From Baffinella frigidus (taxonomy: Eukaryota; Cryptophyceae; Cryptomonadales; Baffinellaceae): a DNA stretch of 28,059 nucleotides. The notes beneath the pieces were generated by a model that saw only the letters and a program-made list of their open reading frames with translations, did no database searches and was not told where the DNA came from. Shown one piece after another: positions 40 through 26,195 of the stretch. Positions within the stretch are counted from its first letter, which is position 1. Each line of letters begins with the position of its first letter. The DNA lies in the NCBI GenBank assembly GCA_026770585.1, contig MU646327.1:1257976-1286034 (forward strand), in the 5' to 3' direction. A program made the position numbers and the translations under genes.

Positions 40-3000
40 CTGCCTCCGGACGCAAGGGTCTGGCGCTTGAGCTGTGCGAGATCGGGAGGATCCTGCGTGT
101 AGCCATCGCCCGAGTCCGTGTAGGCATCGACGTCATTCGAAGACACGAGATGCGCGAAGGAGAGGAGCAGGTCGGCCGCGCTGGCGGGGTGCAGGGGGTC
201 GTCACGCGTGAACCCTGCCGCCCCACCAGACCTCGTCACCACCTGCCGCCACTTACCGCCCTCCGCAGCCCCACCGCGTGTGTCTCAACCGCGGCGTGTT
301 TGTCCTGGCACAAAACCTGAGCCGGTCCGAACTGGGGCCAGGATCTCCTCCAGTGAGTCAAGAGTGTGTTGAGGCGTGCATGGGACATGGCAGGTAGGAG
401 GGTAGAGTTGAGGGAGTTGGGGGGCGGGAGCACCAAAGGAGTAGAGCATCTGAGCGTTGCTCTTGGCTCCGTAGAAGGTGTGCACCTGCATCAGCGAGAG
501 CAGCCAGTGTTGACTGGCCGAGTGCAGGGACGCGGTGGGCGGCGCGGGAGTGCATGGGGAGTGCAGGGTGGGAGGCAAGGGAGCGCAGGGGAGTCAAGGC
601 GGAGAGGCGAGTGACCGCAGGGGGGTGCAGGGTGAGTGGCGTGGGAGTGCAGGAAGGTGCAGGGTGCGAGCCGGGGTGGGGGGGGGTCAAGAGCTTGGGG
701 CAGAGGGTCGAGGACGCACCTCCTCCCCAGGGGCGTAGCAGCGATCAGCAACAAGCTCAGCAACGGGAGGCGCGGAGGAGGTGTCGCGAGAGGCGCCCAC
801 GATCTCCGAGACTGAATCGCGGTGGTTCGCCATGTCCAGCTGCCCAAAACCCACCACTGTTAACCATACATCGTAAACAGTAAACCGTACACTGTGAACC
901 CGACAACCTAAACCGTGGTTCGCCCACCCAGTGTGTGCAGGTGTTGAGAACCGCAGCCATGAAAACCCCCACCCAACGTCGTCCATCTCACTCACCTTGA
1001 CAAGCCTCATAATCACGGTGCAAACAACATGATTGAACCAGGTGTAGAGGTTTAGGGTTCAGGATTTAGGGTGCAGGGCGTAGAGTTAACGGTGAACAGT
1101 TTTGAGATGGGGGTTGGATTTAGGGTCTAGGGTCTAGACCTCAGGGTTGGGGTGTAAGGTTTAAGGTGTAGGGTGTGGGGTTCAGGATTGAGGGTTTAGG
1201 ATTCAGGGTTCAGGGTTTAGGGTTCAGGGTTTAAGGTTTAGGGTTTAGGCTTTGGGGTTTGGGGTTTAGGGTTTAGGGCAGAGGGTTTGGGATGAGGGTT
1301 GAGGGATCAAGGGGTAGGATGTAGGGTGAGGGCTGAGGGGGTGGGTTTAGGGATCAGGGAGTAGAGTTTGGAGTTTGAAGTTCAGGGTGTAGGGTTCAAG
1401 ATTTAGGGTTGAAGATTTAGGGTTGAGTGTGCAGGATGTCAGGACTAGGGTGCACGGTATCAGCCCTGCACCCTTCACGTTTGGGGTTGAGGGTCGAGGG
1501 TGTGGGGGTTCAGGGTTCAGGGTGTAGGGTGTATGGGTCCAGGGTTCAGGATTCAGGGTTTATGGTTGAGGGCTGAGGTGCATAGTGTATGTTGATCGGG
1601 TGAGGGTTTCGTGTTCAAGGTTTAGGTTTTGAGTTCAGGGTACAGGGTGTAGGGTTTAGGGTTTAGGGTTTAGGGTTTAAGAGTTTAAGGGTCGGGGTTG
1701 AGGGTTGAAGGCTTAGTGTTCATGGTTTGGGACTTGGGGTTGAGCCTCAACCCCTAAGAGGGTTACGAGTGGAGGGATGAGGTGTCTCGGTTTAGGTTCA
1801 GGGTGTTGATGGCTGAGTTTGACGTTGGGTTCAGGGTTGAAGGCTGAGGGTTTACGGTTTAGAGTTTAGGGTTTAGGGCTCAGGATTCAGGTGTCAGGGT
1901 TCAGGGTGCAGGTTTCAGGGTTCAGGGTTTGTGGTGTAAGGTTCGGGGGTTGGAGTTTAGAGCTGAGGCGAAGTGGCCTGTTGCTTGTCAGATGGCTTCT
2001 TCGTAGCAGCACGTTGACTCGAGATGAGAAGAAGGAGAGCGCAACGGCTTCCACCGATTCAGAGAAAGGGGGGAGGGGGGGAGGTAGGGGGGGGGGGGCG
2101 CACGCCAGGGAGAAGAACAAGGCCAGAGACGCCGAGGCCTTGAATGCTCTCTCCGGGAAAGCCGCGCGTCAACGCCATGGCTATCCCCCACCTGTCGACA
2201 CCCACAATCAGCCGGCGATGCGCACGTTCCATAATCCCGCATCCCTCATCCCCAATCGCTAGCCCCTCACCCCTAAGGATGAAAGGCGAACGCTAATCCA
2301 TAACCCTACGACGGGCTGAGAGGGAAAGGCACCGCAGCATGTTACGTGCTGCGTTTTGCCGCCTGCAGGCAGTGGTGCAAGGCCTCGAGACACGGGATCC
2401 CTCAACCATCAACCATGCACCCTGAACCCTGAACATAAACCTCTTGACCTTCTTCGTCTTTTCTTCTGTATTGCTCTCGATACAGGTCGTAGATAGGCCA
2501 TCAAGCCTTGAGTTGAGTGATACAATAGTCAAACCCTCAACCCTTGACACTCAACCCTGAACTCTCAACTCTCAACCCTCAACCCCTAACCCTGAATATC
2601 AACCCTCAAACCTAACCCTTTCTCCAGAATCGGGGCGCAAGAAAAGAGACCTGAACTTATCCAGGGAGAAGGCGCTCGGTGGGAAAATTTCCGGAAAGCG
2701 TTCGAAGACTCCAAAGGAAAGCAGCGCGTGATTCGCCGCCACTGCCAACCACGGTGCACACACGCGTGTGAGTCTTCGCGCCGACGCGTTTTGGCCGGGG
2801 AGCAGATTGACAGGCGGGAGATTCGGAGCAGAGCGACACTGGAGGGGTCAGAGAGGGAGAGGGAGAGGGAGAGGGAGAGGGAGAGGGGGAGGGAGAAAAA
2901 GAGGGGCGCACCTGCTGCACAGAGCTCTCTCGCGTCGTCACCCACCAGGCACCTGCGTCAGGTGGTTTCGGTCAAACACCTGAACCAACCAGACTGACTC

Positions 3001-3678
3001 TGGGGGGTTCGAAGCTCACCCTCCAAGGAGCCGGTCGACTTCCGCCTCGCCCCACATGAGAGGCGTCTGCACGGAGTCCGCGGCGGGGAGCATGCGGATC
3101 CAGGGCGCGAGGTCCGACGCGTTGCCCAAGCGCTGTTCGTGGAGAAGCCGGATCGCCAGCAAGACATCCCCCAGCTCCAGCGCTCCGCCGTTGCCGCCCC
3201 ATCCCCATGCCTCGTTCAACAGGCCCACCACGAGGCCCGAAGCCTTTTCAAGTTCCGGGACATTCAAGGCCGTCGCCGTTTGCAGCATCACATTGCTCGG
3301 CACCGACGCCACCACCTCCCCCTTTTGGATTTGCCTTATCGCGATAAGCCCCAAGCCGCTTTCGCCACAGCTCCCCACTTCAACACCACCTCGGACCAGG
3401 ACACCGCGTTCCCATAGCCACGCGTTCAGTCCTGCCACGTGTGCAGCAGCGTCTCCAGCCTGCATGCAGGGCAAAGCCCGTCGCCGCAGGGAGAAGCCAG
3501 GCCCCGTGCAGGGCAAAGCCCGTCCCCGCAGGGTGCCTTCCCGCAAGGTGCCACCCCGCTCTCCGCGCAGAAGCAGGAGGGTGCCTTGCGAGGGCAGGCG
3601 GGCGGAGGGCAGAAATGCACCGGCAAAGGCCAGATGCATGCAAAGCTGAAGCGGCATCCGCTTGACGGCCCCCATCAT
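40..3678 (-). CDS. SET-domain protein lysine methyltransferase, Rubisco-LSMT/SETD3-like, plastid-targeted (3' incomplete)
   Basis: Proposed exons on the minus strand: 3678-3020, 2773-2651, 2191-2104, 839-720, 485-434 and 214-40 (continuing outside). All introns are GT-AG and phases agree; the 2773 start is the weakest border (AAG acceptor). Residues 1-21 are a hydrophobic signal peptide (MPLQLCMHLAFAGA) followed by Phe22, the secondary red-plastid leader pattern. The SET domain begins at about residue 105 (SGLGLIAIRQIQKGEVVASV), continues with FERFPEIFPPSAFSLDKF and WGIAMALTRGF, and carries the two signature motifs: LLPGLDMANHR (NH at 295-296) and GEEVHTFYGAKSN (catalytic-type Tyr335), then YSFGFTRDDP. 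Family members methylate lysines of plastid proteins such as Rubisco large subunit or aldolase. The C-terminal substrate-binding domain is mostly outside. M3678 was chosen because it starts the leader; an upstream in-frame Met at 3930 would bury the signal peptide and overlap gene B. Confidence 0.82.
1041..1965. repeat. Degenerate telomere-like array (TTTAGGG/TTCAGGG on plus) in gene A intron 3
   Basis: About 0.9 kb of seven-base units such as GGGTTTA, GGGTTCA and GGGTTGA fills most of the 1,264-nt intron 840-2103, which separates the exon ending LVLLPG from the exon starting LDMANHR. On the sense (minus) strand the array reads CCCTAAA. Near the intron's 3' end (about 845-915 on plus) a short stretch of opposite orientation occurs (GTAAACAGTAAACC). 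Confidence 0.9.
2398..2630. repeat. Short telomere-like stretches (CCCTCAA on plus) in gene A intron 2
   Basis: Units such as ACCCTGAA, ACCCTCAA and ACTCTCAA occur at about 2398-2440 and 2527-2630 inside the 459-nt intron 2192-2650. Here the sense strand of gene A is G-rich, opposite to the larger array in the next intron. The rest of the intron shows no recognisable feature. Confidence 0.75.
2850..2898. repeat. GAGGGA microsatellite in gene A intron 1
   Basis: A purine-only run of GAGGGA units on the plus strand gives a long CTCTCC pyrimidine tract on the sense strand of gene A, within the proposed 246-nt intron 2774-3019. It lies upstream of the proposed acceptor and could serve as a polypyrimidine tract. 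Confidence 0.85.
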
Positions 3679-3812: not shown

Positions 3813-6800
3813 ATGCCACGGCACAGGAGGCGCCGAGCGGGGCTGAACACTTCCTTCCCGTGCGCTTTTGCAGTTGCGCTGATCTGTGCGGCATCGTATC
3901 CACGCCTGCTTGCGCTGGAAGGCGCTGCACCCTCCTTCCTGGGTTGCGGACGGGGGATGGCTGGCAGATCGGGATGGCTGGCAGATCGTGCAGCGGGCTA
4001 CCGCGAGCCGGTCCCTCGACTGTCGCTGAGGGGTGGAGCTAATGAGGGGGTGTCTGGGGGGAACATGGAGCTGTTCGAGGCATCGCGAGAGGCCGCTGCA
4101 GACAAGGAGGATTTTATGCATGAGGAGTTTTCCTCCATGTCTCAAATCGCATCGTACAGCGAGGTGCTGCGCGAGCTGGGCGTGACAGTCGAGCACGAGG
4201 AGGATGTCGTTAAGCACTGGGCGCCGACCATTGCTGAGGCCGCCGACAACGGTGCCTTGCCACATGCGAAAGCGCAGGTCCGTTTGTCCCAACTCCCAAT
4301 GTGTAAATCCGCCCTTGGCCCGAGCAAGCTCCTAGTTGGGGTTCCTGAGAGAAGACCGCGCCTTGCAGGCGCTGGCAGGGATCGATGTCGACGCTCTCTA
4401 CCAGCACCTGGAGATTGACGCCGGGCCTCCATCAACAGAGGAGCAGGAGAGAGCAGGGTTGCCCCGGGAGGGTCAGCAGTCCGGGGTCCCTTGTCAATGC
4501 CATCAGAGCCTTGGAGAGCATAGCAAGGGCGTCATGTGCGACTGGGAGATGGCCGGGGGCTACAACCAGTTCTACGAGTGCTACACGTACTTCAAAAACG
4601 TTCACAGTGGCGTGATCCTGGAGCTGGGCCACATTGACATGGGCGGATATTTCCGGTGCTTTCCCACCCGATTGTAGGGTGTTCTCCACGTGTGCACGGT
4701 TGGGAACCCTGCTCCCAAGCAGAACGCCATGTGCGTGTGTGGGTGGAAATGGCGGGCGCACGGTGACGAGGAGGGTGGGGGGGTCTTGCTGGCAGGGTGC
4801 AAGGAGGTGCGGCAGCGGGCCCGATCTACGTCTACCCCGACGGCGACGTCCTCGAAGCAGACAGGCTGAGCGAGTGGGCGTGCCCTGCGGTGCCTGCTGC
4901 GCTCCATGCTGCCGCGGGATGGGAGGAGGGGGGGGCGTCGCGCAGCGTGCGAGGCTTCCGCTTCGATGGCGACGCCTTTCAGGCCTCCTTGCAGGTGCCT
5001 GCTCCTGCATGCGCGTGTCTGCTCTTGCTCTCCCGGGCCATCCTCACATAATTGCCAGTGACCGTCTGCGGCGGGAGCTCGAAACCCCTGAAGCACCTCA
5101 CGGACCCCTCCTGCGTTGCACGGCGTGCCCGGTGCATGCGCGCGACAGGGGTGGCAGGGCGTCGGGAGCTGAGGGGTGGCGTGGCGGCGGCGGAGTGCAG
5201 GAGGGGAGCAAGGCCGGGTCGGTGGCAGTGGCGCCCGGGAGCAGCGACGCCGAGGGGCTGCTGCGCAAGGTGTGCTTGCACGGGGTGGTCCTCATGGGGG
5301 AGCGCCCTGTGAAGCTCGACGAGCTCGAGAGCGAGGACTCGAGCGAGGGGGGGGCGGCTGGGGCAGAGGAGGAGGAGGAGAAGGCGGCGCCGTTGGTGTG
5401 GGGCACGGGGACGGAGGAGCAGCAGGACGAGCAGCTGAAAGAGTGTGGAAAAGCCATCGAGGGGGTGAGCAGGTGCACGCGCGTCTCCGAGTTCAGCGTG
5501 GTGCGCTCCATCCTCGATGAGCCGCCCGAGCCGGGCCCCGCGCCCAAGGGGTGGCAGGTCGAGCCTGAGGGGGGGGGGGTCAGGCTGCGCGTCTGGCACC
5601 GCGCTAACCCGGCGGCTCAGCTGTTCCTCTGCAAGGTCATTTCCCCTTGGAGCTGGTGCTGGAAAGCCTCGGAACGCCCCCCTCGACAAACCTGGGTTGG
5701 TTCTCGAGACAAGTCCAGGGATGCCGAATCAATGCTCTGCAGCCAAAACACATCCCTATTGAGGGGCTTAGGCTTTAAGTTTGGGTTTACGTTTTCACGG
5801 TGTGGGGTGTGGAGTGTGAGGGTTATCTCTGCTGGGGCATCTTCTCTGGAACGTGGGTTTTGACAGCGGGGAGCAATGAGAAGGTTGGTACTGAACGGGA
5901 CGCGCGCGCGCGGGGGGCACGGAAACAGGACCAGCTCCTCTTCCTCTCGTCTCCGGAGCCTTCCAACGACTTCCGGGTCTGCCCTTCCTCCCCTCTCCCC
6001 CTCCCCTCGCACGCGCCTGTGTTTCCGCGCGACGGTGCAGGACACGAGTCCTTGGGAGGGAGGAGGGTGAGAGCTGCATGAGGTGACGTGTGTGTGTGTG
6101 TCGTGGAGAGGTGGTGGGAGAGGGGCGTGAGAGGTGACGTGCGAGTGCGCCGCAGGTCAGGGGCCTGGCGTTTCCTGCCGACGAGGTCCGACCCCCCAAA
6201 ACCTTACCCCTAAACCCTAAACCCTAAACCCTGGCTCCTATGCCCTCAAACCTGAAAACTCAACCCTTGACTCTAAACCCCAAAAACTAAACCCTAAACC
6301 CTAAACCCTAAACTCTAAACTCCAAACTCTAACCTCTAAACTCTAAACCCTTAACCCTGAAGCCTACACCATGAACCAAAAATTCTAAACTCTAAACTCT
6401 AAACTCTAAACCCTTAACCCTGAAGCCTACACCATGAACCAAAATCCCTTAACCCTAAACCCTAAACCCTAAACATTAAACCCTAAACCATAAACCCGAA
6501 ACCATAAACCCTAAACCCGAAACCCGAAACACAAACCTTAAGCGCTAAACATTAAACCCAATGCCCTGAATCCTAAACCCTAAACCCTGAACAAAACACT
6601 GAACACTAAATCCTAAACACTAAACCCTAAACCCTAAACCCTAATCCCTCAACCCTGAACCCTAAACCCAAACCCAAAACTATAAACCCTAACCCCTGAA
6701 CCCTAAACCCTAAACACTCAACCCTAAACCCTAAACCCTTGAACCCCTAAACTCTGAACCATAAACCCTGATCGCTAAACCCTAAATACTAAACCCTGAA

Positions 6801-9393
6801 CCTTGAACCCTCAACCCTAAACTCCAAACCCTAAACCCTAAACCCTAAACCCTAAACCCTAAACTCCGTACCCTTCACCTTAAAACCTAAACCCTATGCC
6901 TTCAACCCGAAACCCTCAACCCGAAACCATAAACTCTAAACCCTGAACCCTGAACCTTACACCCTCACCCCTAAATCCTAGACCCTAAACCCTCAACCCT
7001 AAACCCTTAACCTTAAACCCAAAACTTTAACCCCTGAACCCTATGCCCTAAACCCAAAACTCTGGACCCTATACCCTAACCCTTAAACTCTTAAACCCTA
7101 AACCTTCAACCCTTAAACCCTAAATCATCAACACTCACCCCTAAACTCTAGACTCTACACACTCAACACTAAAAACTAAACACTGAACCCTAACCCTGAA
7201 CCCTGAGCCCTAAACACTGAACTCTAAACCCTAATCCCTAAACCTTAAACACTGAACCCTGAACCCTAAACCCTAAACCCTAAACACTAAATTCTAAACC
7301 CTGAACCCTGACACCTGACCCAAAGCCTGAACTCTAAACCCTGAACCCCAACCACTGAACCCTAAACCCTGAACTCTACTCCCTAACCCCTCCACCCTGA
7401 AACCCTAAATCATTGAACTCCCAAACTCTGAACACTAAACCCTAATCCATGAATTCTAAACCCTAAACCCTGAACCTTGAACCCGAAACCCTAAACTCTA
7501 ACACCCAAACTCCAAACCCTCAACCCTAGACCCTCAACCCTATACCCTTCACCTTGAACCCTAAACACTTTACCCTATGCCCCCAGCCCTAAACCCTAAA
7601 CCCCAGACCCTAAACCCTAAACTCTAAACCCTAAACCCTGACCCCCAAACCCTTAAACCCAAACCCTACACCCTAATCCCTAAATCCTAGACCCGCAACC
7701 CTGAACCCTGAATCCTAAACCCGAAACCCGAAAATCTGACCACTGAGCCCTATGCCCTGAACCCTAAACCCTGGACTCTTTGCCCTAACCCTGAAACTCT
7801 TAACTCCAAACCCTGAACCCTGAACCCTAAACCCTCAACCCTAAACCCTAAATCCTAAACCCTAAACCCTGAAACCTAAACCCTAAACCCTAAACCCTAC
7901 TCCCTGAATCCTCAGTCCAAAACTCTGAACCCTTAATCCTGAACCTCGAACCCCCAACCCAAAACCCCAAATCTTAACCCTCAATCCTAAACCCTAAACC
8001 CTAAACCCTAAACCAAAAAACCTAAACCCTAAACCCTACATCCTAATCCCAGAACCCTGAACTCTGAAACCTGAACCCTCAACCCTGAACCCCAAACCCT
8101 GAACCCTGAACCCTAAACCCTGAATCCCAAACCCTCAACCCGCAACCCTTAACCCTGAACCCTACACCCTGAAACCTAAACCCTAAACCCCAAACCCTAA
8201 TCCCTGAATCCTCAGTCCTAAACTCTGAACCCTTAATCCTCAACCCTAAACCCTGAACCCAAAACCCCAAACCCTAAACCCTAAACCCTAAACCCTGAAC
8301 CCTAAACCCAAAAACCTAAACCCTTTACCTTAAATCCTAATCTCTGAACCCCAAACTCTGAAACCTGAACCCTAAACCCTGAACCCCAAACCCTGAACCC
8401 TGAACCCCAAACCCCAAACCCCAAACCCCAAACCCTAAACCCTACACCCTGAAACCTAAACCCTAAACCCTAATCCCTAATCCCTGAATCCTCAGTCCTA
8501 AACCCTGAACCCTTGATCCTTAACCCTAAACCCTGAAGCCTAAACCCTAAACCCTAAACCCTAAACCTTAAACCCTGAACCCAAAAACCCAAAAACCTAA
8601 TCCCTAAACCCCTTACCCTAAACCCTCAACCCTAAACCCTGAACTCTAAATCCTAAACCCTAAACCCCAACCCCGACACCCTTCACCACACACCCTACAC
8701 CCTACATCCTAAACCCCAAACCCTACACCCCAAACCCTCAGACCTAAACCCCAAACCCAAAAACCTCAAAACTAAGACCCTGAACCCCAAACCCTAAACC
8801 CTTAACCTTAAACCCCCTCCCTCTCTCCCTGCACCGCTGCCTGCGTCGTGGGTCCGCACTCGAGCATCCTGTGTTGGAGGGTGCGTGCTGACGCATCATG
8901 CTCAGGATTCAGGCTCTCTCGCCGGCATTTATTCGTGGTGTGGCGTCATGGGTGACTGGGGTCAGCGTTTTTGGCCAGGGACAGGGTCGGAGTTGCGGGG
9001 TGAGCATTGACACACGCGCCCCCCCCCCGCAGGCAAACCCCGTGGCTCTGTCAGAGGAGGAGCTGCACCAGCGTCTGCGCGAGTCGGGGCTCGAATACCA
9101 GGGGTACTTCCCCACCACCCAACGCACCGGAGTGCCACGCATGGGATTCTGAATCCACCCGCAGTACGGGTGGACAGTCTAATTACAGAGTCGCGTCTTC
9201 GCGACTCGGGGCTCGAATATCAGGGGTACTTCTGCGCCTTGCATAGCGCCGGAGTGCAACGCATGGAATTCTGAATCCACCCGCAGTACGGGTGGACAGC
9301 CTGATTACTGCATCTTTTGCATGCCGTAGCACCCATTTTGCGTGCCGTAGCACCCAGAGACAGAGAGAGGCAGAGAGCGAGAGAGTTTGAGGC

Positions 9394-9452
<59 letters not shown>

Positions 9453-9458
9453 GGCAGA

Positions 9459-9512
<54 letters not shown>

Positions 9513-10356
9513 CAGGTCCTAAGAGGATTGGTGGGAGAGCAGGTGCCCAGCGAGCGAGGCCATGTACCCAGGATGGCCGCTATTGGACAACTTCGACCCT
9601 GGCAACGACGCCAAGGACCCGGAGGCGAGCACCTTGATCCCTCTTGCACCGCCACCCGTGTCTCGCCGCAATTCCTCTCGCCCTCAACCCCTCTCGCCCC
9701 TCAACCCCGCTCGCCCATAAACCCCTCTTGCAACTCAACCCTGCTTGCCCCTCGACCCCTCTCGCCCCTCAACCTCCGCCCCCTGATGACCTGGTCGCAC
9801 GCGCTGGTGCCCGATGCGTGTCTGCAGCATGAATATCTTGAGCCCGACCGCATCTCGCCAATCCGAGACCAAGAGCTGCCGAAAACCGAGGCCTGACTCG
9901 CGGGGTTCTCCTCTGGGAGCAGGACGTAGAGTACCTGGTGCAAGCAGAAGGTGGGAACATTGCCTTCCCCGGGAAATATCAACACAGCGAGGACCCAAGA
10001 TGGCAAGCGGTGTCACCCATTCCTCCCCGTTTTCAAACCGTTCGACCCTACAATTATCCATGCCTGAAAGCGCCATGCCCCTCCGCTCCACTTGCAGCAA
10101 GTTGCTGGCATGCGCAACCACCCTCGCCGGTGCCGGCATGGCCACCCCTAGTTGGTTGCTCGGCGCGCGTACCCCCCGCGCGCGTACGCACGTGTTCACG
10201 GTGGGCGGTGGTGGGTGGCAGTACATGCAGCAGTGCATGGTGCAGGATGGGAGCGCGCACTCGTCCGACGAGAGCTCCGAAGCCGACTTCTTCGCCGACG
10301 AAGAAAAGCAGAGTGGTGAGGACAAAGAGGACGACTCCGATCTCTCGGGAGATTGA
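3813..10356 (+). CDS. Unrecognised 607-residue protein with N-terminal targeting leader and acidic C-terminus, nine exons
   Basis: Proposed exons: 3813-4277, 4369-4655, 4796-4994, 5201-5635, 6156-6185, 9033-9103, 9543-9657, 9923-10009 and 10222-10356. All junctions are GT-AG, phases agree, and the total is 1,824 nt (607 codons plus TGA). The N-terminus has a basic start, a hydrophobic segment (FAVALICAASYPRLLALEG) and then LSLRGG, a motif often seen after leaders of secondary-plastid algae, so export to the plastid or secretory system is likely. Conserved-looking blocks are MAGGYNQFYECYTYFK, GPIYVYPDGDV, KGWQVEPEGGGVRLRVWH, LSEEELHQRLRESGLEYQG and EGGNIAFPGKYQHSEDPRW. An acidic linker (GAEEEEEK) lies mid-protein, and the tail is Asp/Glu/Ser-rich (ESSEADFFADEE). 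No family was recognised. A 66-nt intron inside exon 2 (about 4464-4529) is possible in frame. The ten-codon exon 6156-6185 and the join across the 2.85-kb repeat intron are the least certain parts; two genes instead of one cannot be excluded. Confidence 0.6.
6190..8816. repeat. 2.6-kb degenerate telomere-like array (CCCTAAA on plus) in gene B intron 5
   Basis: Almost the whole proposed 2,847-nt intron (6186-9032) consists of units such as CCCTAAA, CCCTGAA, CCCTCAA, CCCCAAA and CACTAAA. Perfect runs are short and mixed with variants, so this is an old, diverged array rather than a functional telomere. It starts within a few bases of the donor (GTCCGACC) and ends about 215 nt before the acceptor CCCCGCAG. 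The C-rich strand is the sense strand. No gene is visible in it. Confidence 0.92.
9071..9314 (+). repeat. 122-bp tandem duplication across a gene B exon-intron junction
   Basis: Units 9071-9192 and 9193-9314 share GACTCGGGGCTCGAATA-like sequence (GAGTCGGGG in copy 1), the stretch GGAGTGC-ACGCATGG-ATTCTGAATCC, and a perfect 7-bp hairpin CCACCCG/CGGGTGG (9155-9173 and 9277-9295). The central 20 bases differ more. Copy 1 contains the end of exon 6 and its proposed donor (GG|GTAC at 9104). Copy 2 repeats the donor, but reading into it from copy 1 meets a stop at 9150-9152. Confidence 0.88.
9354..9512. repeat. GACA and GA microsatellites in gene B intron 6
   Basis: A (GACA)n run (about 9391-9422) is followed by two long (GA)n runs separated by GGTGGCAGAGATG. 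Just upstream, CGTAGCACCCA is repeated at about 9326 and 9345. The tract lies in the proposed intron 9104-9542. Confidence 0.92.
9665..9778. repeat. C-rich imperfect minisatellite in gene B intron 7
   Basis: Variants of CTCTCGCCCCTCAACCC recur about six times (CTCGCCCATAAACCC, CTTGCAACTCAACCC and similar) within the proposed intron 9658-9922. They look like longer relatives of the CCCTCAA unit, again C-rich on the sense strand. Confidence 0.75.
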
Positions 10357-10381
10357 GGCTGGGAATCGCAGTGAATTATGT

Positions 10382-10387
10382 TTTATT
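10382..10387 (-). promoter_or_regulatory. AATAAA overlapping the stop codon of the gene C paralogue
   Basis: The minus strand reads CAATAAAAC: the TAA stop is embedded in a canonical AATAAA polyadenylation signal. The arrangement is identical to that at the end of gene C. Confidence 0.6.
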
Positions 10388-10525
10388 GAGCGTCCTGTTC
10401 ACGCCAGCAAAGCATGCACGAGTGGGGGCAGTCGGCGTCCGAGGTGTCGATGGTGTCCGGTGTGGGCAGGTCCCAGTAGATGCACGTGTCTTGCCGCGCC
10501 GCCGCGCGCCGCGTCGTGAACAGGC
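10383..10525 (-). pseudogene. Truncated paralogue of the gene C 3' end
   Basis: On the minus strand this reads FTTRRAAARQDTCIYWDL, then DTSDADCPHSC and MLCWREQDAQ followed by TAA. It matches two separate parts of gene C: FTTRRAPAGQEACFYWEV near the end of exon 2, and DTEDAARAYSCMQCWRDQDA at its C-terminus. The DNA is also similar past the stop, including an AATAAA overlapping the stop codon. The upstream 400 bp shows no further recognisable gene C exons, so this is a remnant or a short relative. Its stop lies 26 bp from the stop of the convergent gene B. Confidence 0.7.
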
Positions 10526-10950
10526 ATCGTTGCGTTACAACAACCCATGGCTTAAGAATCCGTACCGGATTTAGGGTATGCGTGTTCTTGATTTTGTAGC
10601 AGAGGGTTGACTAAATCCAGTGTTGAGTCAACCCAGGGCGCATAACCTGTGAGACGCTACAAGTCCCAGGTGTCACGCGCAGTTTCTTGTCTTTCGTGAG
10701 GTTTACTGAAACGAATCAGCAGTCCTTAGGAGGCCCGGAGTCTCCAGTCCACTCTCTATTAAAAGGACAGGAGTTTCCAGTCGACTCTCTAAAGTGAATC
10801 TACTTTGGAGGCTTAAGTGAATCTACGTTGGCGTCCTCATAGCCTTGCGTCCTTAAGTGCCCTTAGAGCCTAGATACCCACACAGAGTGGCGAGAAGGAC
10901 AAAGAGGGCAAGGCCGAGGTCTCGTGCGAATGAGGCAGGTGATCGCAGTA
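10526..10950. other. Intergenic stretch with small repeats, no gene
   Basis: No coding region is supported here. A 20-bp imperfect direct repeat (GAGTCTCCAGTCCACTCTCT) lies at 10739-10758 and again at 10771-10790. GTGAATCTAC occurs twice (about 10795 and 10819), and its reverse complement appears near 22078, beside another repeat. GGTTGAC/GTCAACC-like half sites occur near 10606 and 10625. Confidence 0.5.
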
Positions 10951-10964: not shown

Positions 10965-11784
10965 GACATGTGGCATCCTGGTCGCGCCAGCATTGCATGC
11001 ACGAGTAGGCTCTGGCGGCGTCCTCGGTGTCGAAGGTCTCCGCCTTGGTCACGTACAAGCGCCGCGGCCGCAGGCAGCTCCAGGTGTAGGTGTGCGAGGC
11101 GAGGGTGGCCGTGGCGCCTTGCAGCTCGCTCCCGAGGTTGTAGAAGAGCCCCTTCGTCGCGCTGTCCAGAGTGTTGGAGTCCGTGTTCCACCTGCGCCCG
11201 CCACACCAAGTCACAATCTCGTCACACGCGGCCGGGCACCGAGCCCGGCAGCCTGGCAGCGAGGCGGAGCAACACGCCTGGTGGACACGCTCTGAACGCG
11301 CACGCGCGCGCCTGCAGGGCGCAGCAGGATGCAGCACGCTCGGAATTGATGATGGCGGCTGGAGCAGGGCGGGGTGGTGTAGGTAGTGTGGTCCAGGCAC
11401 CTCTACGGCGGGCGGGGCAATCCTCGGAGGGATCATCAAGGTGCAGGCTACTCTACAGGGGTGCCTCGCTCAGAAGAAACCACCGCCCCCTAGGACCCTA
11501 CAGTAGGGCTATGCCTAGGGCCCGATGGTGGTCCTAGGGAGGGGGTCTCTTTCTTATGAGCGAGGTACCCCTGTAAGGCAGGGCGGGGCGGGGGACCGTT
11601 CGATGAGAGAGCGCTGGAGCTGGAGGTCGCGCGCCCCCGCGCAGAGGCAATCCGCATGCCCCACCGAGAAGTGCGAGCGGTACACGGTGTTGGGCATCAG
11701 CGCGTAGTCCTCCACGAACTGCAGGTCCAGGAACCCCGCCGCGATCTGCGCCCGCGCGTCCGGGAGCACCTGATGGTTCAGGGT

Positions 11785-11837
<53 letters not shown>

Positions 11838-12028
11838 GGTTCAGGGTTGAGGGTTGAGGGTTGAGGGTTNNNNNNNNNNNNNNNNNNNNNNNNNNNNNNN
11901 NNNNNNNNNNNNNNNNNNNNNNNNNNNNNNNNNNNNNNNNNNNNNNNNNNNNNNNNNNNNNNNNNNNNNNNNNNNNNNNNNNNNNNNNNNNNNNNNNNNN
12001 NNNNNNNNNNNNNNNNNNNNNNNAAGGT

Positions 12029-12059
<31 letters not shown>

Positions 12060-12098
12060 AGGTTCAGGGTTGAGTGTTGAGGGTTCAGGGTTCAGGGT

Positions 12099-12144
<46 letters not shown>

Positions 12145-14555
12145 GGTTAACCGACGCCGCGTCCAGCGCGTGCACCGCCGACCCCGCTCCTCCCGCCGGC
12201 GCGGGCGTGGGCAGCACCACGCGGGCCGGCGGCGGCGGCGGCGGCGTTGCCGGGGCCGGCGTGGTCGCCACGGCCGCTGGGGGCGTTGTTGCGCTGGCAT
12301 CTGTTACTTCCCAGTAGAAACACGCCTCCTGCCCCGCGGGCGCGCGGCGCGTGGTGAAGTTCGCGACGCTCGCGAAGGCCACGTCGAGGCACACGGACTT
12401 GAGGCCCCGCTGCGCCGCGACCCCGCACGCTGGCGTCGCGCTCATCGACACCCAGTAGGTGAAGGCCGTCGCCCCCTGCCCAGTGGTGAAGGTTGCTGCC
12501 GGGAAGTCCGCGGAGTGGAAGAGGTAGGAGAAGGACCACGTGGTGCTGGCTCCCCACACGCCCGACCCGGCGAACTGCGGGCGCCCGTCCACCTTGAACG
12601 CGAGTTTTGTTGTTTGTGTTGTTCCGCACGCCACCGTCAATGGCGCCTGGGGCGACGTCGCGCCCACCACGTTGGCAACCCCCTCCAGGGCGTACGTCCG
12701 GATGGGAGGCTCCCTCCACTGCCCCGCGACGTCCGAGGTTGTGCTCACCTCCACCCGCATGTCCACCATCGACGACACGACGCCGCCGCCAGGCGCGTCG
12801 ACAGACACCACCACAGGAACGGCAAACGCGCACATCTCGAGGAGCCGCCCGGCCGTGTGTCTCGCGCGCGCCGCCAGGCACAGCTCGTACACCGCGCGGT
12901 TCTCGAACGCGATCACCCCTGAGGCCTCGTCGATGACCAGCGCACCCGGCAGCACGAAGTTGTCCGAGGTGAGCGGCGCGAGCGCAAACTTGAGCGACGC
13001 CCCGTAGGTGCCCTTGGCAACGTAGGGCGGGAGCAGCGGGTCCTCGGGAAGATACGCAGCCACCTCCACTGAGTTGGCGTAGAGCACGCTCCCCCCGGAC
13101 ATGTCGTGCTCCAGCCGCACCGCGCCGCGCAGGAACGACGGTCCCAGCATTCGCCATGCATCGTACGCCGCCCCCTCCGGCCACACGCCCCCGATGGACT
13201 CCAGGAGAGGGAGCCCCGTGTCGCCGAGGGGAGCTTGTCCCACCAGCGCTCGAACGTCGCCTTTGACCACCACCCTGTTGTGGAGGAGGGGAGGGGGGGT
13301 TAGGTTGCTGGTCCATCATCCGCACACGCCGTGCGCCACAACCCTGTCGCAGAGTAGGGGAGGGGGGTTCAGGCCACGCTCTCGATTACCACCCGCCTGG
13401 TTTCGGGTTTCGGGCTTCGGGCTTCGCGCTTCGGGTGTCGGGTCTTTCGAATCGCGTAGTCTAGGTACATGGCGCTCGATGATCAGGCTTTGTGAGGAAA
13501 GGAGGCTGGGGAAAGGTTGATTCCACGGAAAGGCGTGATGTTCGCCTAAGTTGGGAGAAATCAAAACCTCAAGGACCTGAAAGCAGGCTTGGGAAAGGTT
13601 GGTACCATCCAGGCTGGCGAGCGTAGGCGCGCGTCCACTGCAGCTGCAGCTCGCCCCCCGGCGGGCACTCGAACCAGAGGATCGAGAAGCGCCCGTCCTC
13701 CCGCAGGTAGGCGCGCATGCTCCCCCCTTGCCGCACCGCCAAACTCGAGTCGATCCGCATGGTCGAGGCATACTCCGTGTACCTCCCCGCGACGTCCGTG
13801 TCGTTGACCAGCGAGTGCAGGGCGCCCCCCCCCAGCCCCGTGAGCAGCAGCGAACGGGGGAAAGCTTTCGTGGTCCGGCCCATCGCCTGCAGCTGCACCT
13901 GCGCAACTGGCGGAAGCACCACTGGGGAGAACGAGAGCGCCATGGAGGTCGCCGACACCTTGATGTGTGAGACCACGTTCCAGCTGGCGGGCTTTGAATA
14001 GTCTGCAGGCATTGTGTTGAGAAGCTCGTGCCACCGGCAGCACCCCTTGAAGAACGCCTCGTATTCCCCGCTCTCGGGCAGCATAACTGAAAAGGACAGC
14101 CGCGTGCTGTAGCCCGTGAAGCTGCCCATGTCTCCGTACGAGGTTGGTCGGTCGGCCAAAACCGCGAACAGATACCCCTGCCGTCCTCCCATCTCCGAGT
14201 ACGGCAGGAAAGTCTGCTCTCCGCCAGGCGCCTGCCAGCCGATCGAGCGCGCCTCCCCCCCCACCCCACCTGGAAGGAACACCGACCCCCCGCCCCCGCT
14301 AACGTAATCTGCTGCAACCGCACCCGCCGGGCCGGTCGGGATAAAGGTCGCGTGGAGAGATACGGCGACATGCAGCGGGTTGCGCATGTCGGTGGCGCAT
14401 AACTGCGGGAAGCGAGGGTCCGAGGCTCCCTCCAGCGAACGGCAGGACCTCCAAGACATTTCCATCGTTGCAAGCTGAAGCGCGCTGCATGGGCGCGCTA
14501 CCAGCGCGACCAATGCCAGCAGCAGCCCGCAGGCCGCTTGACCGTGGCTGCGCAT
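10960..14555 (-). CDS. Secreted 825-residue protein of unknown family, four exons
   Basis: Proposed exons: 14555-13606, 13274-12152, 11769-11597 and 11191-10960. Phases agree (2, 0, 2) and the total is 826 codons with stop. Residues 1-26 are a clear signal peptide (AACGLLLALVALVARPCSAL). The rest is rich in Gly, Ala, Val, Ser and Thr and looks beta-rich, with possible N-glycosylation sites (NDT, NFT). A Thr/Pro-rich linker with six consecutive prolines (residues about 641-691) separates the large N-terminal part from a Cys-containing C-terminal part ending in SCMQCWRDQDATCQ. This suggests an extracellular or cell-surface protein with a stalk-like linker. No domain family was recognised. The exon 3 donor (CG|GTCCCC) was chosen for phase; a later in-frame GT lies in the adjoining MITE terminus. 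Exon 1 contains few Cys, while exons 3-4 carry most of the CxC/CxxC-type pairs. Confidence 0.78.
11456..11573. mobile_element. MITE-like element with CAGGGGT termini, flanked by TA
   Basis: The 118-bp element has terminal inverted repeats of about 24 bp (CAGGGGTGCCTCGCTCAGAA against the inverted right end, two mismatches) and a TA dinucleotide on both sides, as for Tc1/mariner-type insertions. The interior has two CCTAGG palindromes and no coding capacity. It lies in gene C intron 3, with its right end 23 bp from the proposed exon 3 donor. Confidence 0.8.
11770..12151 (-). repeat. Gene C intron 2 made entirely of telomere-like CCCTCAA units
   Basis: The proposed intron begins GTTAACCCTCAACCC directly after the codon for Ser691 and ends CAACCCTGAACCATCAG directly before VLPDARAQ. 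Everything visible between is CCCTCAA or CCCTGAA repeats, interrupted by an N gap (11870-12023). The repeat is more uniform here than in the other arrays, suggesting a younger expansion. Confidence 0.88.
11870..12023. other. Assembly gap of 154 N
   Basis: The gap lies inside the uniform GGGTTGA array of gene C intron 2, so the true length of that intron is unknown. Any apparent open frame running through the gap is an artefact. Confidence 0.98.
13395..13446. repeat. TTCGGG minisatellite in gene C intron 1
   Basis: Units TTTCGGG, CTTCGGG and GTGTCGGG repeat about six times inside the proposed intron 13275-13605. On the sense strand these are CCCGAAA/CCCGAAG, a C-rich variant of the telomere-like unit. 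Confidence 0.75.
13522..13585 (+). repeat. Diverged copy of the CCTAAAGGA-tailed repeat in gene C intron 1
   Basis: The stretch shows CCACGGAAAGGCGTG, TTGGGAGAAATC and AAAACCTCAAGGACCT, matching the 3' block of the family at 15084, 16561, 16634, 17872, 18812, 18892 and 19094. It sits just downstream, in gene orientation, of the exon 1 donor. Confidence 0.75.
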
Positions 14556-23869: not shown

Positions 23870-26195
23870 TCACGCCATCCCCGACGCGGTGCTGAAACCG
23901 CGGCAGTCTCCGTGGGCGCACGCAGGCTGAGCGCCACACGCGGCAGCGCGCTCGGGGAAGGGCGCGCCAGAGAGAGCAGGGGCGAGCGTGGGTAGTGTGG
24001 GTGGGCGAGCGTGGGTAGTGTGGGTAGGCGTGTAGGAGTGGGTGGGCAGAGATCCGAATGGTACCCTCCTACCCACACTACCCACAGCGAGGGCGGGGGG
24101 GACCTTGGCCAGGAGGGCCTTGGAGGTGGCGGGCGCATCGCCCATGGCCTTGGTCTCGGCGTCCACTGACACCACCTGCGGGCACAACACCCGCTGAGTC
24201 GCACCACACCCCAACATGTCCACCATGCATTCCCACGCGAGGAGGCCTGCGTGTGACTAGGCGCCCTTCCCCCGCACCTCGCGCCTGGATGCACGCAGAC
24301 GCCCGCCGAGGGTGGGGTGATTGGGTCGGGGCGGGCACCTTGAGGTCGAGGGGGCCGGACACGGAGCCCTTCTTCCCCGGGAGGCCAGCAGCCACCTTGA
24401 CCACGTCCGCGGGGTTCACGAACGCGCCGCGGTTGACCATGTAGAAGGTCGTGTGCTGCGCCATGGCCATCACGAGCGTCGCGGCCGCCTGTCACCCGAG
24501 GGTCGGAAGGGTCAGGCTTTCGAGTCGGTGCGTGGGGTGGGGTGGAGGATAATGACATGGGGGTGGTGTGGTGCGGGCGAGCCCTAAACCCTCAATCCTC
24601 AACCCTAAGTGGAGGAGAATGGCGTGGGGGTGATGGGGGGATGACCTCGAAGTTGGTGCAGCCATCCGGCGCGCACGATGTCGCGTAGTAGAACGCCGCC
24701 TGTCCACCACACCTCCATCCGGTTAGGGCTTCGTGTGTGGTGTGTGGTGTGTGGTGTGTGGTGTGTGGTGTGTGGTGTGTTTTGATTTGGGGTGTGGGGT
24801 TTGGGGTTTGGGGTGTGGTGTGTGGTGTGGTGTGAGGTGTGTGGTGTGGAGTGTGGGGTGTGGGGTGAGGGGTGAGGGGTGAGGGGTGAGGGGTGTTGGG
24901 AGTGTGGGGTGGGGGGTGTAGGGTTTAGGGTTTGGGGCAAAGGGACAAGGGTTTATTTAGGGTTGAGGGTGAAGCATTTACATTTTGGGTTTTAGGGTTT
25001 AGGGTTTAGGGTGTAGGGTTTAGGGTTTAGGGTTTAGGGTTTAGGCTTTCGGGTGTAGAGTGTAGGGTTTAGGGTTCAGTGTTTTAGTGTTTAGGGTTTA
25101 GGGCTCGCATGCACCACACCAGCACCACCATGCCACCCTCCTCTACCCCAGCGCACTCACCGACTCGAAAGCCTGACCCTGCCAACCCCACACGGGGTGT
25201 CCCGCAACGAGAGGCTGCGCTGGCAGGGGGCACGGGGATCGGGATCGCACGGGTAGGGGAGGGTTGTCCACCTGGGCGGCGTCGAGCTCAGCCGCGGCAG
25301 GGATGGTGGCGGAGGCGTCGTCGGCGAACATGACCACTGCGCCCGGGGGGCTGATGCGGTTGGGCACGTCGTCGTAGAGGCTCGTGACAACCCCGCTCGC
25401 GTCGGACTGCCCCATCAGCAGTCTGCAGAACCCTGCCTCGCTCCACGCGAATCCGTGCATGATGTGTGACACCCCCTCGAACCCCTCGGACAGGTAGACC
25501 GCCTCGGGCCCCCCGGACCCCCAGAGCGGCAGCACCCCCCGCGCCAGGAACGCGTCGGTCGCGATCATGCTCATGTGCTTGATCAGGGTGTTGGCGTTCA
25601 GCTGTCCGTGCATCACAACAACCTTGTCGGCCTTGCCGCTGGACACGAACTCTGTGCCCCACTCTGAGTCCTCCGCCGCCGTGGACATCACCGTGACTTC
25701 CTCCATGTAATCCTTGAGGGGCCCGCCGCGGGTAGTGGCGCACAGCGACTTGAACGCCGCAGCTGTGGCCGCGCTGTCCGAGATCATGCGGACAGGCACC
25801 TCGTTGGCCGTCAGGCACCCCAGGGCACAGTCCTGGACGTACAGGACCCTGCCGGCGAGCTTGGCTTTGGTGCTCACATAGAGGGGCTTCGAGAACTTGA
25901 CCTCCTTCGGCTCCGCCGTGCTGATCGACCCCCCGGCCGCTGCAAGCTCGGGCGTCTTCAGATTCCGGAAGGCGACATTCTGGGGGACGATCCCAGAGCC
26001 GCACAGCGACCAGTTGAGCGCGTAGCTCCGCCCCTCCGCGACGTTCTCGTTGGGGAATGAGATCTCCTCAGCGGCGTCCACCGTGAACGCCTTTCGGGCA
26101 AATTCCCGGCGCTGCGGCGCAGGGGCCGCGGCCCGGCGAAGGGAGTTCGCCACGCCGCGCCCCTGGGACAGGGCGGGACGAAGGATGGACGCCAT
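23870..26195 (-). CDS. Probable mitochondrial protein of 418 residues; faint resemblance to ATP-type PEP carboxykinase
   Basis: Proposed exons: 26195-25272, 24699-24646, 24488-24339, 24175-24104 and 23926-23870. All are phase 0 and GT-AG, ending in TGA at 23872-23870. Residues 1-37 are basic, Ala/Arg-rich and free of acidic residues (MASILRPALSQGRGVANSLR, then RREFARKAF), a typical mitochondrial presequence. The body shows YALNWSLCGSGIVPQNVAFR, LYVQDCALG...EVPVRMISD, HIMHGFAWSEAGFCRLLMGQ and SDASGVVTSLYDDVP. The order of these blocks recalls ATP-dependent PEP carboxykinase, where a Gly-rich nucleotide-binding loop with Lys follows a Ser-Met-His segment. In this protein the corresponding stretch (residues 262-273, GQSDASGVVTSL) lacks the Lys and the GTGKTT signature, and the protein is shorter than the family's roughly 540 residues. 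If related, it would be a non-canonical or inactive member. The family call is from memory and weak; the gene itself is well supported. M26195 is preferred over an upstream in-frame Met at 26216. Confidence 0.72.
24011..24085. repeat. 18-bp perfect inverted repeat in gene D intron 4
   Basis: GTGGGTAGTGTGGGTAGG (24011-24028) is the exact reverse complement of 24068-24085. GTGGGTAGTGTGGGT also occurs at about 23988 and near 15576. It lies in the proposed intron 23927-24103. Confidence 0.9.
24724..25105. repeat. GTGTGGT minisatellite grading into a telomere-like array, gene D intron 1
   Basis: Period-seven GTGTGGT units (24731-24778) pass through GGGGTGT and GGGGTGA units into TTTAGGG (about 24915-25105), inside the proposed intron 24700-25271. 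The sense strand of gene D is C-rich. The shared seven-base period suggests these unit types are variants of one repeat. A 30-bp piece in the opposite orientation (CCCTAAACCCTCAATCC) lies in intron 2 at about 24582-24609. Confidence 0.88.

Follow-up and report, generated by a model that had tools for sequence, protein, structure and literature searches.

A predicted spliceosomal intron composed of telomere-like heptamers in Baffinella frigidus, and a proposed strand rule for repeats within introns

Background

Can a telomere-like tandem repeat make up the whole body of a spliceosomal intron and, if so, did the repeat expand within an older intron or bring the intron with it? The question is raised by a locus of the cryptophyte Baffinella frigidus, in a 28,059-nucleotide stretch of contig MU646327.1 (assembly GCA_026770585.1, positions 1,257,976 to 1,286,034; G000:C25:1257976-1286034 in our own numbering) that is referred to here, at its full length, as the window. 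In this window the coding sequence of a minus-strand gene, designated gene C, is interrupted by units of the CCCTCAA/CCCTGAA type and an assembly gap. The reading that we favour, with a probability of about 0.62, is that the interruption is an intron of the GT-AG spliceosomal type, the body of which a telomere-like heptamer has come to occupy by local amplification. We further propose that such arrays are filler to which splicing is blind and which can therefore grow until an intron is full.

Results

Anatomy of the predicted gene C intron

Read on the minus strand, the sequence across the interval runs ...GCGGCGTCG / GTTAACCCTCAACCC ... N 11870-12023 ... CCCTCAACCCTGAACCATCAG / GTGCTCCCG..., with the slashes at the coding boundaries. 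Exons 2 and 3 are separated by 128 bases of repeat of the CCCTCAA type, a run of 154 N and another 100 bases of the same repeat type. An earlier note on this DNA had described an intron that is nothing but repeat, and direct reading bears out its anatomy: exon 2 has its last base at 12152 and exon 3 its first at 11769, as had been claimed; all 228 visible bases belong to CCCTCAA/CCCTGAA-type units, which merge with both splice sites; and a single T separates the donor GT from the repeat. The intron ends, GTTAACC...CCATCAG, place GT and AG at the coding boundaries. Within the visible bases there is one GT, at position 1, and one AG, at the end, where 14.2 of each would be expected by length alone (one in sixteen positions). 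An array detector of our own marks 217 of the 228 bases, making the body one tandem array; no terminal inverted repeat was seen by eye in it.

Coding signal reaches both edges of the array. Under a codon model trained on exons of genes other than gene C, the 40 codons that lead up to the donor, a partly proline-rich stretch, reach +30.0 bits in a phase that matches exon 3, and the 24 codons from the acceptor to the first in-frame Met of exon 3 score +30.9 bits, while all frames of the array score negative. Exons 1 to 3, joined at the proposed sites, contain no stop, and the intron has phase 0 on both sides. The exon-2 frame, if continued, reaches a TGA inside the array at 12092-12094, so that read-through would truncate the protein. 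Judged from these sequence signals, 11770-12151 is a real feature and very probably an intron, of the GT-AG phase-0 type. The features of the locus are collected in Table 1.

Table 1. Predicted features of gene C and of the comparison intron (window coordinates)
Feature	Positions	Strand	Basis and remarks
Gene C exon 1	13606..14555	-	From ATG; open frame, coding score and position check; end placed at a GT that yields phase 2
Gene C preceding intron	13275..13605	-	Limits predicted; short CCCGAAA-type heptamer run at 13399-13443
Gene C exon 2, end ...HALDAAS	12152..13274	-	Start placed at an AG; open frame, coding score
Gene C proposed phase-0 intron of CCCTCAA/CCCTGAA units	11770..12151	-	GT and AG once each among the 228 bases visible; coding score negative
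Donor GT, then T, then AACCC of array	12150..12151	-	Only GT of visible intron
Upstream array part	12024..12148	-	Tandem Repeats Finder period 7, 93% matches
Assembly gap, 154 N inside array	11870..12023	.	Gap length is the assembler's
Downstream array part	11777..11869	-	Tandem Repeats Finder period 7, 94% matches
Last unit CCATCAG	11770..11776	-	Two substitutions from CCCTCAA; carries acceptor AG, only AG of visible intron
Gene C exon 3, beginning VLPDARAQIAAGFLDL	11611..11769	-	Coding score up to acceptor; downstream end approximate
Gene C last exon with stop codon	10960..11187	-	Coding score, open frame; upstream end approximate
PEPCK-like gene intron, largely CCCTAAA/CCCACAC array	24700..25271	-	Homologues continuous across junction; 368/572 bp C-sense array

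We consider it improbable that gene C terminates within the array or ahead of it and that a separate gene follows, with no intron involved; the array does hold a stop in the upstream frame (12092-12094) and exon 3 an in-frame Met 24 codons in, but the +30.9 bits of coding signal lie before that Met, extend up to the acceptor and are in phase with exon 2, and the sole GT and AG of the visible array fall exactly on the coding boundaries. A scaffolding artefact, in which array-ended contigs of two different genes were joined across the gap, would account for the N run within the array, and at least one contig (C25) does end in such an array, so that assemblies may break at these repeats. Against this, the two flanks stop in phase 0 and can be joined into an open frame, and gapless introns of the same anatomy occur in the LRR and PH genes described below, which leaves an artefact quite improbable. 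Scarcely credible is translation of the array as a low-complexity (PSTLNPQ)n segment: CCCTCAA is open in all three frames, but the CCCTGAA units put the TGA into the exon-2 frame, every array frame scores negative, and the frame relation of the two array halves is hidden by the N gap.

The visible array comprises 23 CCCTCAA units, five CCCTGAA, one CACTCAA, one CCTTCAA and the final CCATCAG. None of these 31 counted units is CCCTAAA, though in the sampled genome this heptamer type outnumbers all others. Arrays in the window were called with Tandem Repeats Finder, by which the gene C array shows 93-94% matches, compared with 63-72% for the arrays of at least 300 bp elsewhere in the window. Because of this purity and the missing CCCTAAA, the visible sequence suggests that a variant unit was amplified locally and recently, rather than newly added by telomerase. 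As to a target-site duplication, GGT stands on both sides of the array, which is also what splice consensus gives.

Array introns in other genes

The assembly amounts to 382 Mb in 1364 contigs with many long N runs; in 20 sampled places, 165,515 of 200,000 bases were N. The label of one relative of a window protein, Tamp_05232, would be that of the cryptophyte Teleaulax amphioxeia. The 7-mer census covered the 34,485 non-N bases of seven of these places, the other 13 being all N, and its commonest words were ACCCTAA and its rotations (the CCCTAAA type), alongside CCCCCCC and CTCTCTC. In a sample of 110,404 non-N bases, partly picked near the window, 15.8% were marked as array. Contig ends were inspected in seven places and established no telomere: four were all N, one had TTGAGGG units, one had C-rich units in inward orientation and one had neither. 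The TTGAGGG units are those at the right end of contig C25 (L035), where they run off the end, either as a telomere or as an assembly break at an array. Within the window itself, a degenerate 2.6-kb CCCTAAA array (6191-8818) lies 3' of plus-strand coding segments and is possibly an intron of that gene.

The earlier note had treated gene C as a singular case. It is instead one instance of a wider pattern that includes introns of an LRR gene, a PH-domain gene and a PEPCK-like gene. One intron of the LRR gene, which lies about 20 kb away, is 462 bp long and free of gaps (L024:1714-2175, GTACCCTACACCC...CCCTGAACCCGCAG), and 459 bp of it are array; this intron contains one AG and two GT, and its last unit is CCCGCAG. 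In the PH-domain gene, three introns bear arrays (L023:6369-6637, 7145-7411 and 8531-9694, with 128 of 269, 232 of 267 and 976 of 1164 bp marked, respectively), the first of which needs a GC donor and has boundaries placed by us. Pfam matches fix the strand of the PH and LRR exons, and the arrays between these exons have the C-rich strand as sense (C-sense); the PH domain is well above its Pfam cut-off (3e-14), and a C2 match in the preceding exon is below its own. Another intron of the LRR gene (L024:3829-4050, 222 bp, one AG and two GT) is largely (CT)n, a different simple repeat as intron body.

A sample unselected for repeats was provided by the introns between consecutive kinase-domain pieces, of which 20 were noted and nine were read over 103 bases from the centre. 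By eye, one centre was all array and two were partly array, all three C-sense. Array introns are thus common in this genome but not the rule. Kinase matches also turned up in open frames of 46653, 13283 and 9912 residues (G000:C811:139513-139752, C546:254053-254850 and C477:124894-125064), frames that probably run through N gaps. The array introns have only the 7-base unit family in common, and no shared full-length element of the introner kind was seen among them, no whole-intron search having been run.

Homologous proteins make the intron of the PEPCK-like gene, which also holds one 62-bp G-sense stretch, the best control for splicing. Seven of the 20 proteins found were aligned, and five (P0002, P0004 from MMETSP, P0005, P0006 and P0008) are continuous across the array-intron junction. 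P0001 is the window's own frame read into the intron. The sequence of P0003 (61% identity to the typed model) leaves the family at precisely this junction, where it continues with a valine codon (GTN) and 113 residues in which heptamer peptides are absent. Any frame of a CCCTAAA or CCCTGAA array would run into a stop after a few codons. P0003 therefore seems, as read from its protein, to have an array-less intron at this position. P0002 crosses the array junction but parts from the other proteins at a later one, LDLK, much as a reading of the window's own DNA would do.

Strand orientation and array edges

The heptamers CCCTAAA, CCCTCAA, CCCTGAA, CCCTACA and CCCGAAA contain neither GT nor AG (the variant CCCTAGA has an AG), whereas the complements of the C-rich heptamers have GT in nearly every unit and AG in most. 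In arrays totalling 17,612 bp, AG and GT number 1.29 and 0.76 per 100 bp on the C-rich strand and 11.55 and 14.85 on the other strand; DNA outside arrays has 6.37 AG and 5.55 GT per 100 bp. Twelve of 26 gaps between same-strand coding segments hold arrays, which are mostly C-sense in nine and mostly G-sense in three, and the array length in these gaps comes to 3589 bp C-sense versus 294 bp G-sense. The three discordant gaps hold 41-58 bp of array. One of the nine C-sense gaps (window 225-3027, 2.8 kb) may span two genes and also includes an 89-bp G-sense stretch.

Genome-wide, where counts of repeat patterns are in general lower bounds, arrays run straight into CAGG in 51 cases and into the matched word CGAG in 15 (p = 1e-5), the background frequencies of the two words in sampled sequence being equal (1.42 and 1.41). 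This excess at the acceptor edge supports the use of array ends as splice sites. Of the 16 CAGG places (contigs C1-C101) with a matched string, gene C alone also has a GGT a short way upstream on the same strand, as judged among the 100 of 358 GGT places that were listed (C1-C103).

Surroundings of gene C

No homologue of the whole 819-residue model of gene C was found at E <= 0.001 among 7991 scored candidates, and residues 325-660 gave none at E <= 1 among the same number. No Pfam family exceeded its cut-off. In its own genome, the search with a 503-residue model (exons 2 to last; four candidates scored) returned three matches, all of them the locus itself, and thus no paralogue.

Directly downstream of the gene, at 10375-10530, lies what appears by eye to be a diverged second copy of its last exon with an AATAAA of its own. 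The next intron contains, at 11454-11575, an element with 26-nt terminal inverted repeats (TACAGGGGTGCCTCGCTCA...), the arm motif of which, ACAGGGGTRCCTCGC, has 12 exact matches in the sampled sequence (L005, L020, L024, L027, L029 and the window). A transposon origin of the array was considered in view of this element and rejected: it sits in the next intron rather than in the array, of which it is therefore no explanation.

Discussion

In the mechanism that we propose, a heptamer array with the C-rich strand as sense, having neither GT nor AG, would bring no competing splice sites, and the spliceosome would use the single GT and single AG at the array ends. An array in the opposite orientation, with GT about every unit and AG in most, would be full of decoys such as TTCAG/GG and seems mostly to be kept out of introns. 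Since a C-sense array would be nearly blank to the spliceosome, it could grow to fill an intron, lengthening, shortening and displacing older intron sequence until it reached both splice sites; the first AG after the array could then be the acceptor, and edge units could turn into part of the splice sites, as CCATCAG may have done in gene C and CCCGCAG in the LRR gene.

Several observations weigh against this reading. A second acceptor control, CATG and CACG (CAYG), gives 43 for both words together, and the CAGG excess over it has p = 4e-5 if transitions are not favoured and p = 0.47 if they are twice as frequent as transversions. The result at the donor edge is weak: GGT occurs 358 times and the two control words GAT and AAT together 338 times, both counts being stated as whole, a modest difference of about 1.5-fold after background correction. 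Counted by gap, the strand bias of nine versus three among 12 is not significant (p = 0.15). Six of the nine kinase intron centres are without array by eye. At L030 (about 4400-5400), tandem partial copies of an exon end have a donor GT followed by telomere-like repeats in the G-rich sense, and at L021:7911-8090 a G-sense array adjoins a plus-strand coding segment. In yeast, within a split URA3 intron, telomeric repeats in the C orientation cut mRNA more than those in the G orientation, according to PMC9272169; the orientation effect may thus differ between organisms or have another cause. Finally, P0002 may be genomic and without the first PEPCK-like intron, in which case an intron may have been gained or lost at that site. 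As read from predicted proteins alone, an array-less intron and no intron may both occur among the PEPCK relatives, and the history of the site may be one of gain, loss or expansion.

The earlier note had offered two routes to the intron, expansion of an array within it and its creation by a telomere-like insertion. The latter would be a case of intron gain, in which a telomere-like tract entered an intron-less exon, for example when telomerase acted on a double-strand break, with the edges of the tract itself serving as splice sites, so that the intron would be as old as the array. An array that extends from one splice site to the other and, where it can be read, leaves no trace of different intron sequence would fit such a history, as would phase 0 with a continuous frame after removal, the insertion of short telomeric tracts at breaks in mammals (PMC7215372) and a P0002 that may be without the array-holding intron. 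Yet CCCTAAA units are missing from the visible array in a genome whose commonest sampled heptamers are of that type, the homologue and paralogue searches for gene C gave no intron-less state, the flanking GGT is expected from splice consensus anyway, and at the PEPCK-like site P0003 speaks for an intron without an array; we therefore regard gain by insertion as unlikely. Expansion within an existing intron is somewhat better supported, by the array-rich genome, the LRR intron of the same anatomy and P0003, and we prefer it as the more probable history because the purity and the missing CCCTAAA of the gene C array suggest local amplification.

This reading provides a simple and testable rule for the repeats that introns may tolerate, namely a transcribed strand without GT and AG, together with a genome where several introns seem to consist entirely of repeats of that kind. 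If the rule is correct, repeat expansion, strand choice and splicing would be linked, and intron gain from telomere-like DNA would become testable by comparing relatives. A bolder extension, doubtful at present, is that telomere-like tracts landing or growing in genes of this genome are ready-made introns, for which one or two point mutations at the edges would suffice; they would then create introns and not only fill them, and the strand rule would be a footprint of selection by splicing on simple repeats.

Comparison with known systems

In a literature search judged by the titles and abstract openings of the papers listed, no report was found of telomere-like arrays as whole introns in a protist. 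Related systems are known. Human interstitial telomeric sequences are likewise telomere-like tandem units inside chromosomes, and 31% of them lie in introns, the share that random insertion gives; the effect of intronic telomeric repeats on splicing is named there as still to be tested (PMC7215372). Unlike these, some introns of the present genome are filled end to end, mostly in the C-rich sense, and the visible gene C array is devoid of CCCTAAA. The yeast URA3 system shares with ours an intron holding expansion-prone telomeric arrays, but it is engineered, and the C orientation that is more harmful there is the prevalent one here (PMC9272169). In Cryptococcus, intron copies were gained via repeat expansion, which resembles our case in that the intron content of a gene was changed by expanding repeats; the repeated unit there is an exon-intron piece that already holds an intron, whereas here a 7-base unit forms the intron body (PMC2395259). 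Introners, elements that copy themselves into many genes, similarly present repeated DNA making up introns in several genes (PMC9860276), but the introns described here share a 7-base unit in place of a visible full-length element.

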